Part shown: positions 46,317-59,656 of the stretch, one piece after another
Layout: each line of letters begins with the position of its first letter
Numbering within the stretch: the first letter of the stretch is position 1
DNA from: Halieaceae bacterium
Lineage (GTDB): Bacteria; Pseudomonadota; Gammaproteobacteria; Pseudomonadales; Halieaceae
Reading direction: 5' to 3'
Length of the DNA stretch: 64,000 nucleotides
Assembly: GCA_902623175.1 (NCBI GenBank)
Contig: CACNSR010000007.1
Coordinates: forward strand, 45,636 to 109,635
Notes under the pieces: generated by a model
Told to the model about the DNA's origin: nothing
Seen by the model: the letters and a program-made list of their open reading frames with translations, nothing else
Database searches by the model: none
Program-made: the position numbers and the translations under genes

Positions 46317-46392
46317 GACGCCCCGCGGGCAGCTCAACGAGCGCACAGTATCGGATGGCGTCTCGATACCAGCAAGCGGCATAATGCCAACC

Positions 46393-47700
46393 ATGAATGA
46401 TCGATTCGCCGGCCATACAGCAGGAAAATACCCCGATAGTTGGTACGCCGCCACAGCGCCGCTTCTGCCCGCGTTCTCGTCTTTACAAGGCGAGGAAACT
46501 GCCGATGTGTGCGTGATTGGCGGCGGATATACCGGCCTCTCCACGGCTTTACATCTAAAGAAAAAGGGCTATGACGTGGTGCTGTTGGAAGCCGAGCGGG
46601 TTGGCTGGGGTGCGTCGGGCCGCAATGGTGGGCATGTCGGTACCGGCCAACGGGCGGATCAAGCCAGCATCGAAAAATGGGTTGGGATGGAGGCCGCCAA
46701 GGACCTCTGGCAACTCGGACTCGATGCGGTGCAAAAAGTATGCGAGCTGATCGACGAGTATCAGATTGACTGCGAGTTAGGTTCGGGAAACCTGCACTTG
46801 GCAGCCAAGCGTAGCCATGCTGAAGAGTTGCAGGAGGAGCTCGAGCATCTCGAATCTCATTACGATTACCGACAGCTATCTTACCTAGCGCCCGAGGCGG
46901 TAGCAGAGCGCACCAGCGCCCAAGGCTTCTATGGCGCTTTATTGGATGAGGGTTGCCGACACCTCCACCCTTTGAAATACGCTGTGGGGCTGGCGCGGGC
47001 CGCAGCCGAGGCGGGGGCCAGGATCTACGAGCACAGCCGTGCCCAGCCAGCACCTGACGGCCAGTCTGGAGAGGTCAAAACTGCGCAGGGCTATGTCAAG
47101 GCTCAACACGTGGTACTTGGATGTAATGCTTATCTCGGCGCGCTCATGCCGCGGCTCGCCGGCAACATCATGCCCATCAATAATTTCGTGATCGCCAGCG
47201 AGCCCTTGCCTTCTCACCTGCTGCCAAGGATCAATCGCGACAACCTGTCGATGTCGGACACACTATTCGTCATCAACTACTGGAAGCTTTCTGCGGACGG
47301 CCGGATGCTATTCGGTGGTGGGGAGAGCTACTCGAGTCACTTCCCTCGCGACATCAAAGCGTTCGTACGACCCCATATGCTGAATATCTATCCGGAGCTC
47401 GAGGAGATCGACGTGGAGTATGGCTGGGGTGGTGCCGTGGGTATCACGATGAATCGCATGCCGGACTTTGGACGCGTGGGTGAGCACCTGTGGTACGCCC
47501 AAGGCTTCTCGGGTCATGGGGTTCCCACCGCGACCATGGCTGGCCATTTGCTCGCAGAGGCGATAGACGGCGACACCAGCGGTTTTGACCTAATGGCGTC
47601 GGTACCGACCCACGGCTTTCCCGGCGGCACGCTGCTGCGCTGGCCCGGCCTCGTGGCAGGGATGTTGTTCTACAGCTTGCTGGACAAGCTGGGTCGATAG
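46393..47700 (+). CDS. puuB: Gamma-glutamylputrescine oxidoreductase-like FAD enzyme
   Basis: 435 aa from the ATG at 46393 (46384 also possible); the frame upstream is an extension over puuA. DVCVIGGGYTGLSTALHLKKKGYDVVLLEAERVGWGASGRNGGHVG matches the FAD-binding motif of PuuB and other DAO-family amine oxidases. YAQGFSGHGVPTATMAGHLLAEAIDG is the C-terminal FAD clasp. The next steps (PuuC, PuuD) are not in the window. It is divergent from puuA with only about 76 bases between starts, so shared regulation is likely. Confidence 0.82.
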   Translation: MNDRFAGHTAGKYPDSWYAATAPLLPAFSSLQGEETADVCVIGGGYTGLSTALHLKKKGYDVVLLEAERVGWGASGRNGGHVGTGQRADQASIEKWVGMEAAKDLWQLGLDAVQKVCELIDEYQIDCELGSGNLHLAAKRSHAEELQEELEHLESHYDYRQLSYLAPEAVAERTSAQGFYGALLDEGCRHLHPLKYAVGLARAAAEAGARIYEHSRAQPAPDGQSGEVKTAQGYVKAQHVVLGCNAYLGALMPRLAGNIMPINNFVIASEPLPSHLLPRINRDNLSMSDTLFVINYWKLSADGRMLFGGGESYSSHFPRDIKAFVRPHMLNIYPELEEIDVEYGWGGAVGITMNRMPDFGRVGEHLWYAQGFSGHGVPTATMAGHLLAEAIDGDTSGFDLMASVPTHGFPGGTLLRWPGLVAGMLFYSLLDKLGR

Positions 47701-47707
47701 CGGAGCC

Positions 47708-48106
47708 TTAGCCATCTCGCCGCGCCCTCTCCCGCCAACTGATCGCGAGCAACCCCAGAAATAGTGCGGTTATGGCCTGTGCGGGCAACGTGGGTACGGG
47801 GACATTAGGCAGATCCCTGAAAACGAGGTGAAGAGTGGCCTCCTGCTAAATGTTGTAGTCGGACCGGGTTCGGCGATCCTCCAACACCTTCACCGCAAAA
47901 ATGAGTTTCTGCTGGTCGGGCGGGATCCCCTATTTATCCTGAGCCTTGGCTTTGGCGTTATCGATGCTATCCGAAGGCTGCACATCAAGAGTGATGGTCT
48001 TGCTCGTGAGCGTCTTGACGAAAATTTGCATGGCCAGTACATCCAGCGGATCCAGCAATAAAACGCTTAGTGCGAGACTCGCACTGATGGTTGCTCTGCG
48101 CCTCAT
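47708..48106 (-). pseudogene. Secreted ubiquitin with C-terminal sorting signal, interrupted by two TAG codons
   Basis: Reading 48106 to 47708 on the minus strand gives one frame of 132 sense positions and a TAA. (1) Signal peptide [18 protein letters not shown]...DVLA (25 aa). (2) A ubiquitin fold starting [20 protein letters not shown] and including GIPPDQQKLIFA, RSDYNI and TLHLV; 55 of ubiquitin residues 1-72 are identical, with L8, I44, H68, V70 and K6/11/27/29/33/48 kept and K63 changed. (3) Instead of RLRGG, a tail VPVPTLP, a hydrophobic helix and WRERARR, a tripartite IPTL/PEP-CTERM-like sorting signal. TAG replaces E34 (47930-47932) and Q62 (47846-47848). No indels. AAAGG lies upstream of the ATG. 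Confidence 0.85.
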
Positions 48107-48238
48107 GGGGCAGACCTTTCTTTAGCACCGCCATCCGGTGAGGGCTGGATTTACCGCCACGGTTTGGACAGTATGTCACAGCGTCAAAGCGGTATCGCCG
48201 GTATGACACATCTCTTTGCAAACTGCGAGGGCAACCTG

Positions 48239-48634
48239 ATGCTGACCTTACTTCGAATCCTAACAACCCTGTCCGGCCTGGGGCTTTTGCTCGTTGGCAT
48301 TATCTGGTGGCTGCAACCGGCTACCGCAGCGGAAATACTCGGTGCCAGCCTGCTGGACGGCACCGGCCGTAGCACCCAAATTGGCGACTCGGGAGCATTT
48401 TTTATTGGCGCCGGTGGACTTTTGGCGCTGGGGGCTATCCGAAACCACGCTGCCCTGACGATATCAGGCGGTCTGTTGGTGGGGCTGGTCATCCCCGGTC
48501 GCGTTTTATCCGCCACCACCCATGGCGGCGCCTGGACGCCCGATGAAATTGCTGGAGAATGTATTGTCTTGATTGTTGCTTTATTGACCGCCGCAGTCAT
48601 TCGACGACACAACACGCAATCTGTCTTCCAGTAG
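48239..48634 (+). CDS. Small membrane protein (DUF4345-like)
   Basis: 131 aa from the ATG at 48239, with GAGGG upstream. Four hydrophobic segments (about 5-24, 53-68, 72-88 and 104-122). GATRSTQIGDSGAFF-like sequence (GRSTQIGDSGAFFIGAGGLLALGAI) recurs in small DUF4345/DUF4267-like families. Function is unknown. It is divergent from the ubiquitin pseudogene, and 132 bases between them must hold both promoters. TerB follows 18 bases downstream. Confidence 0.65.
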   Translation: MLTLLRILTTLSGLGLLLVGIIWWLQPATAAEILGASLLDGTGRSTQIGDSGAFFIGAGGLLALGAIRNHAALTISGGLLVGLVIPGRVLSATTHGGAWTPDEIAGECIVLIVALLTAAVIRRHNTQSVFQ

Positions 48635-58477: not shown

Positions 58478-59656
58478 ATGAAACCACTGGAAGGCATCAC
58501 CATTCTTGAGTTCTCCACCATGATCACTGCGGCGCTTGCGAGCATGATGCTTGCAGAACAGGGCGCGCGGGTGATCAAGGTGGAGCCCAGTGATGTGGGG
58601 GACCCCATGCGCTACATCGGGGCACGCAAGGGCGACATCTCCTCATTGTTTGCCGGCTGCAACCGCGGCAAAGAGTCGATCAAGATCAATCTCAAAACTG
58701 AAGTGGGTCAGGCGGTCATCCGCAACATAGCCTCTCAGGTAGATGTGGTCATCCATAACTTTCGCCCGGGAACCATGGATACACTGAATCTGGGTTATGA
58801 CGCACTCAGAACCATCAACCCGAGGCTGGTGTATATGGCGATTTCGGGTTTCGGCACCGAAGGGCCGCTGCGCCGGGCACCTGCCTACGACCCGATCATT
58901 CAGGCTCATTCCGGGATGGCGGCAACGCAAGGTGGCGATGACTCCCCCGCGTTTATCCGCTCTTTACTCTGCGACAAAATCACCGCCTACACCGCCTGCC
59001 AGGCAGTGACCAGTGCCCTGTTCGCCCGCGAGCGGAGCGGAGAAGGCCAACTAATCGACCTCTCCATGCTCGATTCAGGGCTGTTTTTCATGTTCCCCGA
59101 CGGGTTTCAGAATCACGCCCTGCTTGATGATGACGCCATCCCTGGCGGTATGCTGATCGACATTTTGTATGATCTCACGCTGACCAAAGACGGCGGCATC
59201 ACTGTCGCTGCGGCAAATCAGGAGATGCAGGAACGCATGCTAAAGGCGATTGGCCTGCTGCATCTGCTGGGAGACGAGCGCTTCAACACCATGCAGAAGC
59301 TGGTGGAGAATCTGCATATTTTTCGGGGCCTCGTCGCTGAAAAGTGCCTTGAGTACACCAGTGATGAATTACTGGCCCTGCTGCGTGAGATGGAGGTGCC
59401 CTGCGCGAGGTGCCTAAACCGCGACGAAGTGCTGGCTCAGGAGCAACTCAGCGCCAACGACAGCATCGCTGAAGTCGACCATCCACATCTTGGCACGCTC
59501 CGCGTTGTGAAAGCACCGCCCCGGTTTGGCGGCAAGCGGCTAGAACCCTCGCGTCCGGTGCCGGCCCATGGCGAGCATACGGACTCCGTGCTCACCGACT
59601 TTGGCTTGGACAGCCAGCGCATCAACACCTTGCGATCGGAAGGCGTGCTGGGCTGA
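58478..59656 (+). CDS. Family III CoA-transferase (CaiB/BaiF)
   Basis: 392 aa from MKPLEGITILEFSTMITAALAS at 58478, with GGGG seven bases upstream (ATG at 58472 also possible). GARVIKVEPSDVGDPMRYI, HNFRPGTMDTLNLGYDALR, MAISGFGTEGPLRRAPAYDPIIQAHSGM and CDKITAYTACQAVTSALFARERSGEGQLIDLSMLD, with the catalytic Asp in CDK, are the CaiB/BaiF signature. These transfer CoA between carboxylic acids such as carnitine, bile acids, formyl/oxalate or 2-methylacyl substrates. It is convergent with the SDR gene downstream. Substrate is unknown. Confidence 0.92.
   Translation: MKPLEGITILEFSTMITAALASMMLAEQGARVIKVEPSDVGDPMRYIGARKGDISSLFAGCNRGKESIKINLKTEVGQAVIRNIASQVDVVIHNFRPGTMDTLNLGYDALRTINPRLVYMAISGFGTEGPLRRAPAYDPIIQAHSGMAATQGGDDSPAFIRSLLCDKITAYTACQAVTSALFARERSGEGQLIDLSMLDSGLFFMFPDGFQNHALLDDDAIPGGMLIDILYDLTLTKDGGITVAAANQEMQERMLKAIGLLHLLGDERFNTMQKLVENLHIFRGLVAEKCLEYTSDELLALLREMEVPCARCLNRDEVLAQEQLSANDSIAEVDHPHLGTLRVVKAPPRFGGKRLEPSRPVPAHGEHTDSVLTDFGLDSQRINTLRSEGVLG

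Follow-up and report, generated by a model that had tools for sequence, protein, structure and literature searches.

We found that the minus-strand frame at positions 47708..48106 of the window (the whole stretch of 64,000 nucleotides analyzed here) is the decayed gene of a ubiquitin of a marine Luminiphilus, probably exported and anchored on the surface, which as a mimic may have engaged ubiquitin-binding or ubiquitin-cutting proteins of grazers; xrtH, the gene of its putative sorting enzyme, has decayed as well. Ubiquitin is generally regarded as a protein of eukaryotes. The window genome (G000) is a Luminiphilus MAG, 85% complete, with an assembly of 2.39 Mb in 65 contigs. Read from 48106 to 47708, the frame comprises 132 codons followed by a stop and contains no frameshifts. 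Codons 1-25 (48032..48106) encode a signal peptide ending in ...LDPLDVLA, with a predicted cut directly before Met1 of ubiquitin, as in the orthologues. Codons 26-97 (47816..48031) encode ubiquitin residues 1-72 without the RLRGG tail. The 35 codons beyond the domain (47711..47815) encode DLPNVPVPTLPAQAITALFLGLLAISWRERARRDG up to the stop; this linker and hydrophobic tail, in which VPVPTLP precedes a hydrophobic helix and an arginine cluster, resembles XrtH-type tails, replaces the conjugation GG, and is recognizable from the sequence, the orthologues and a DNA scar in genome G417. Two in-frame TAG codons, likewise on the minus strand, occupy ubiquitin positions 34 (47930..47932) and 62 (47846..47848), where the orthologues have no stop. 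On the plus strand, the frame is flanked by two conserved neighbors: a FAD-dependent oxidoreductase-like gene (46384..47700; named from a sequence motif only) that converges on it, and a gene for a small membrane protein (48164..48634), also conserved in related genomes, that diverges from it.

The ubiquitin model PF00240 matched the window product, with TAG read as Q, at 84 bits (E 6.4e-24; cut-off 25.4) and the window genome at 81 bits (E 1.1e-22), the latter being the single ubiquitin match in that genome; with such scores, the likeness to ubiquitin is not due to chance. An earlier note on this DNA had described a signal peptide, a ubiquitin domain and a proline-rich, hydrophobic and arginine-containing tail in one minus-strand frame with two TAG codons and no frameshift, and we arrived at the same architecture, coordinates and stop positions. 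The I44 hydrophobic patch (L8/I44/H68/V70) and six of the seven lysines are present as it had stated; its count of 55 matches in residues 1-72 was close, but our recount against four eukaryotic ubiquitins gave 53-54 of 72. A protein search with the window product was swamped by polyubiquitin, which dominated the best 120 listed of 7972 scored matches, among which the named ones were eukaryotic; we therefore sought bacterial relatives by genome scans.

By the pattern of its changes, the window frame is a pseudogene. We took as near-invariant the 57 positions with conservation of 90% or more across 63 other exported bacterial ubiquitins. The window copy breaks 11 of these 57, two by stops and nine by other changes, compared with a median of two and a maximum of seven such departures among the 63. 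Five of its changes (G10S, I30A, G47V, G53R and L56R) introduce residues unseen at those sites in the other 63; I30 and L56 are residues of the ubiquitin core. The changes unique to the window copy comprise 6 silent and 15 non-silent ones (stops counted), against silent to non-silent ratios of 17:6 in G436, 8:7 in G413 and 15:6 in G435. A sequencing error at the two TAGs alone would be insufficient to explain the decay because nine further changes break constraint. The copy thus has neither the open frame nor the normal constraint of a functional gene, and the pseudogenization favored by the earlier note is borne out by the two TAGs, the nine further breaks and the ordinary use of TAG in the window. 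That note had also left room for expression by amber readthrough, which our results do not support. That the gene is alive through readthrough or a TAG-to-sense code is very improbable: both stops are TAG in a frame free of indels, and the xrtH remnant described below has one TAG as well, but TAG terminates 12 of the 44 non-overlapping window ORFs of at least 200 aa (mechanically called), in keeping with the earlier observation that it ends other window genes. A search for amber-suppressor tRNAs found none with a CUA anticodon among the 39 tRNAs detected in the 85% complete genome. Readthrough would moreover leave untouched the nine non-stop changes at near-invariant positions, and the frame changes and deletion that xrtH carries beyond its TAG.

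Stop-free homologues with the same signal peptide and tail are present at the same locus in related genomes. Ubiquitin matches occurred in 7 of 57 genus genomes, the window genome included. G436, G422, G413 and G435 have the gene at an identical place and in the same orientation between the same neighbors, while in G398 the same-locus gene is split over two contig ends with its middle unseen; as far as they are covered by sequence, these relatives are free of internal stops and match the architecture of the window frame. Both neighbors could be placed on one fetched locus in 17 genus genomes, 5 with the ubiquitin gene and 12 without it. In a tree built from the two neighbors, G000, G430, G422, G436, G413 and G417 form one tight clade of mixed state (support 100), and the carriers G435 and G398 form a separate pair (support 100). 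Judging from these loci, some members of the genus maintain the gene at a fixed position and relatives have lost it in various ways; the simplest reading is that it is older in Luminiphilus and was lost several times. More widely, the family is rare and patchy, given that evenly drawn samples gave ubiquitin matches in 6 of 390 genomes of the order and 2 of 398 of the phylum, the window genome being counted in both and the other phylum match being weak (26.6 bits).

Substitution rates at this locus point to constraint in the undegraded copies. In the ubiquitin domain of undegraded same-locus copies, dN/dS was 0.054 for G413-G435 and 0.047 for G436-G413, the third pair being saturated; the flanking oxidoreductase gave 0.03-0.07 in nine of ten pairs and 0.098 in the tenth. 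By this measure, the undegraded copies are under purifying selection at a dN/dS of about 0.05, like the flanking gene. Where computable, comparisons of G422 or G000 with same-locus copies gave 0.057-0.179, and those involving the open but degraded G422 gave 0.083-0.179. The G422 copy is open yet resembles that of the window, with 13 departures at near-invariant positions, unique changes of 3:12 and a frame extending to 161 codons. In G436, ATC stands at the position of the orthologues' start codon, and an in-frame ATG lies 54 bases upstream (L009 1444-1498). G425 has a stop-free copy at another locus together with a degenerate second ubiquitin-like ORF of 102 aa (L015 1423-1731). Between the G425 and G413 copies, we counted differences at 48 of about 50 silent sites and at 2 of about 166 non-silent ones; because the G425 locus differs, its copy may be a separate acquisition.

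Absence of the gene takes different forms in two relatives. G417 retains a deletion scar (L022 1300-1510) in which the first 123 bases compared, on the 3' side, agree with G436 at 113 sites, and by coordinates about 93 of these belong to the stop and tail codons; the sequence then jumps to the 5' side, and the signal peptide and ubiquitin domain are gone. Short similar sequences lie at the joint of this scar. G430, which of all genomes compared has the smallest silent distance to G000 in the flanking gene (dS 0.25) and is joined to it on the tree with support of 76, has a gap of 119 bases with no clear scar where the gene would stand, and its position on the tree suggests loss. In G040, of the same family, a gene at L002 1369-2193 encodes a signal peptide, ubiquitin, a choice-of-anchor U domain and a VPALP tail.

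Our exosortase search gave a divided answer for the window genome: the model for exosortase H (XrtH, TIGR04177) does find an xrtH gene there, but the gene is broken. It is a remnant scoring below the cut-off on contig 9 (L180 2063-2625; G000:C9 about 58562-59124) with frame changes, one TAG, and a deletion that fuses it to the end of the gene for the XrtH-associated protein. The motif AGCNGVEA, whose cysteine is presumably catalytic, is altered to LDGNGVDA. As far as these lesions tell, neither the sorting enzyme nor its candidate substrate is still encoded by a working gene in the window genome. The general exosortase model PF09721 had no match in any of nine genus genomes tried, the window genome among them; the conclusion from this model alone that the genus lacks exosortases was rejected, as the TIGR04178 and TIGR04177 models overturned it. 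Above its cut-off, TIGR04177 detected XrtH in 20 of 57 genus genomes, 18 without and two with a ubiquitin match. G436 has a whole XrtH with the associated protein adjoining, and G398 has XrtH above the cut-off. At the xrtH locus of G430, only XrtH residues 1-33 and residues 142-193 of the associated protein are left, such that G000 and G430 both lack working copies of the ubiquitin gene and of xrtH, through different lesions. G417 kept XrtH and lost the ubiquitin gene. The states of the two genes agree in four of the five genomes readable at both loci, a number too small for a test. In G413 (95% complete), G422, G435 and G425, we found no XrtH, and the orthologous symporter by which its locus could be recognized was not found either; these genomes are therefore uninformative on XrtH.

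Handling of the Luminiphilus tail by XrtH is likely but not proven, because the genus tails miss the IPTL-CTERM model. This model (TIGR04174) gave no match at E ≤ 1 for the tails of P0001, L009 and L011, and the VPALP tail of G040 (L002) reached 16.1 bits against a cut-off of 20.5, and 17.0 bits, also below cut-off, with the VPAMP model. The earlier note had the RLRGG end replaced by a sorting signal and pointed to IPTL/PEP-CTERM tails; a tail does replace RLRGG, but the genus tails tested miss the IPTL-CTERM model. Like the substrates of the XrtH/IPTL-CTERM system, the Luminiphilus tail combines a proline-rich motif, a hydrophobic helix and a basic end; related genomes have XrtH, and exported ubiquitins of other bacteria carry true IPTL-CTERM matches. 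It differs in that VPTLP and VPALP tails miss the model and the window xrtH is broken. The tail could instead be a plain inner-membrane anchor, with XrtH uninvolved and the joint decay coincidental. We regard this as rather unlikely, given that both genes are dead or gone in G000 and G430 and both present in G436 and G398, that four of the five readable genomes agree (again too few for a test), and that the G040 tail comes near the models in a genome with XrtH. Consistent with a plain anchor, on the other hand, are the failure of sorting-tail models to match the genus tails, XrtH without ubiquitin in G417, and the 18 of 20 XrtH genomes without a ubiquitin match. In G040, a VPLSP-tail protein (L176 53-1163) is encoded directly beside xrtH, which suggests a Halieaceae version of the XrtH tail.

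Dead as the window copy is, it points to a class of predicted exported ubiquitins that is widespread in bacteria and whose members often carry a surface anchor. Scanning one genome per species (84,980 species), we matched 449 related stretches and fetched the best 80 loci by similarity, 66 of which look built for export. One of the two scan patterns required Ala before Met1, so that the frequency of Ala at this position is biased; the hydrophobic stretch is unbiased. We parsed the frame in 75 of the 80 loci (77 ORFs; five loci unparsed) and applied a crude signal-peptide rule: a hydrophobic stretch, small residues at -1 and -3, and a start codon 14-50 residues upstream. By this rule, a signal peptide ends directly before Met1 in 67 ORFs from those 66 loci. 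The other ten ORFs failed it, L061 and L083 by start distance only; in L059, L066 and L113 the hydrophobic stretch is absent, and these may be contamination or cytoplasmic. According to record titles, the family includes bacteria from about ten phyla and two MAGs of methanogens. Twelve of the 66 loci come from records titled as isolates, in Pseudomonadota, Planctomycetota, Actinomycetota and Bacillota, and the remaining signal-peptide loci from MAGs or from records of uncultured organisms, among them one likely single-cell genome.

Eukaryotic contamination, misassembly or sequencing error is an extremely unlikely explanation. In its favor are the MAG origin of the sequence, the three loci without a signal peptide, and the near-identical genes of L051 and L054 under titles of different phyla, which show that binning errors occur. 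Against it, the window gene lies on a 109 kb contig among bacterial neighbors at a locus common to related genomes, the 12 isolate-titled loci carry the signal peptide, and the window copy has nine constraint-breaking changes besides its two TAGs. At the level of the locus, contamination and misassembly are ruled out by the shared position and the bacterial neighbors; single bases could still change.

The family keeps the I44 patch and usually lacks the conjugation GG, with the proviso that all such counts are biased upwards, since similarity decided which 80 of the 449 were taken and one scan pattern asked for Ala before Met1. L8, H68, K27, K29 and G47 are invariant in all 67 ORFs; I44 is present in 63 (V in the other four), K48 in 63 and K63 in 65, and GG75-76 is present in seven. 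Compared with four eukaryotic ubiquitins, the 67 share on average 62-65 of the 72 residues (87-91%), subject to the same upward bias. The intact orthologue L047 was predicted to fold as ubiquitin with terminal helices (mean pLDDT 84.3), and its 50 listed PDB matches, at 84-96% identity, are nearly all titled ubiquitin structures. A surface module was recognized in about 25 of the 67 ORFs, counting the 25 commonest families of each anchor scan: Pfam Autotransporter in 14, SLH in three, dockerin in three, a T9SS tail in one, and IPTL-CTERM in three (Pfam) or four (NCBIfam), among L052, L104, L117 and L124. VPLPA-CTERM and LPXTG occurred once each, just under cut-off. About 40 of the 67 have no recognized anchor among the families listed, including four Luminiphilus rows, and three Dyella relatives (L069, L088 and L095) end as free ubiquitin. 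That one exported domain is joined to such different means of surface retention suggests that extracellular exposure is what matters.

In the working that we propose, signal peptidase would cut stop-free relatives of the window product exactly before Met1, where the Sec signal peptide is predicted to end, and would thereby release folded ubiquitin outside the cytoplasm, as described for BfUbb of Bacteroides fragilis. The proline-rich motif, hydrophobic helix and arginines, in place of the conjugation tail, would form a retention module, and processing by XrtH could then keep the domain on the surface. There, with less certainty, the displayed domain may act non-covalently as a ubiquitin mimic, because the lysines and the I44 patch are kept and GG is mostly dropped; that the domain departs so little from its eukaryotic counterpart, even in copies saturated with silent change, likewise argues for mimicry. 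Its most likely partners would be ubiquitin-binding or ubiquitin-cutting proteins of eukaryotic grazers and, as an ecological guess, the grazing protists with which free-living and rumen carriers live would be natural targets. Export, processing, surface exposure and target are inferred. Patchy presence with repeated loss would fit a conditional interaction trait. An extension of this proposal to the whole family seems possible, and we offer it tentatively: lineages in about ten phyla (by record titles) would have repeatedly displayed a near-eukaryotic ubiquitin on their surface, each with its own anchor (exosortase tail, autotransporter barrel, S-layer, dockerin, T9SS or perhaps sortase), as a non-covalent mimic directed at the ubiquitin machinery of eukaryotic microbes, and the window would capture one such system dying with its sorting enzyme.

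Two other functions were weighed against mimicry. We consider it improbable that the ubiquitin domain is a mere stable, protease-resistant cap or spacer on surface proteins, without a partner. Its fusion to many unrelated C-terminal parts would suit a cap, but the sequence of the entire domain stays nearly constant where silent sites have saturated, as between G413 and G425 (48 of about 50 silent against 2 of about 166 non-silent sites), and stand-alone exported copies exist. The main competing explanation, which we still regard as unlikely, is that the family resembles BfUbb in being an exported ubiquitin that harms competing bacteria. BfUbb is alike in its cut before Met1, its lack of GG and its strain-variable carriage (PMC5705921, PMC3352274); Luminiphilus carriage is patchy too (7 of 57), and the three Dyella proteins end as free ubiquitin. 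About 25 of the 67 relatives, however, have modules expected to keep the domain attached to the producing cell, unlike a diffusible toxin, and the 67 average 87-91% identity to eukaryotic ubiquitins against 63% between BfUbb and human ubiquitin (PMC3352274). No immunity-like neighbor was noticed when the Luminiphilus ORF lists were read by eye. The mimic proposal remains our preferred reading of the Luminiphilus gene.

The family can be set apart from known systems with a ubiquitin fold. Bil and its relatives are cytoplasmic ubiquitin-like conjugation systems with E1/E2-like partners; they share with the window frame the occurrence of a ubiquitin fold in bacteria, whereas the domain described here is of an exported type and mostly without GG. 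The closest counterpart is the ubb product BfUbb, which has a signal peptide cut exactly before Met1, no GG and strain-variable carriage (PMC5705921, PMC3352274), and is required for activity against certain B. fragilis strains (PMC5705921). The window frame is likewise patchy, with a signal peptide up to Met1 and no GG, but BfUbb is a secreted domain ending in Cys with no further tail, whereas the window frame runs on for 35 more codons, and the Luminiphilus product ends in a hydrophobic sorting-like tail. The wider family differs from BfUbb in being often fused to surface modules and nearer to eukaryotic ubiquitin. A secreted effector of the nematode Globodera rostochiensis, as described in PMC5705921, likewise consists of a signal peptide, ubiquitin and a C-terminal extension, here of 12 residues and cut off in the plant; it differs in being the product of an animal gene whose extension has no described role as a surface anchor.

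Within the excerpts of the open-access papers surveyed, BfUbb is the characterized exported bacterial ubiquitin in print, with no other exported or anchored one; nor do they describe exported ubiquitins joined to a variety of surface anchors, or a genome in which the genes for substrate and sortase are both decayed. Genes of this exported type are already annotated in databases, for example on a plasmid of Ruminococcus albus 7. The Luminiphilus genomes provide a natural series in which gene, sortase, scar and loss lie side by side, and cultured carriers such as Leeia oryzae, Dyella, Rhodobacter amnigenus, Saccharibacillus and Cohnella make the system testable.

On mobile elements, matches were few: three of 72,556 plasmid records matched in our scan, and none of 50,697 phage records did. 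The R. albus 7 gene (NC_014824.1 388141-388500), which resembles the exported type, is annotated as 'ubiquitin family protein'. Frames that join a signal peptide to ubiquitin also occur on six contigs called viral (L188, L189, L190, L183, L192 and L193), where they end in IPTL-like tails, in a free RLRGG or in long extensions at the C-terminus; these contigs are possibly transfer vehicles. A rumen Clostridia record (L102 3411-4528) contains two different exported-type ubiquitin genes in tandem.
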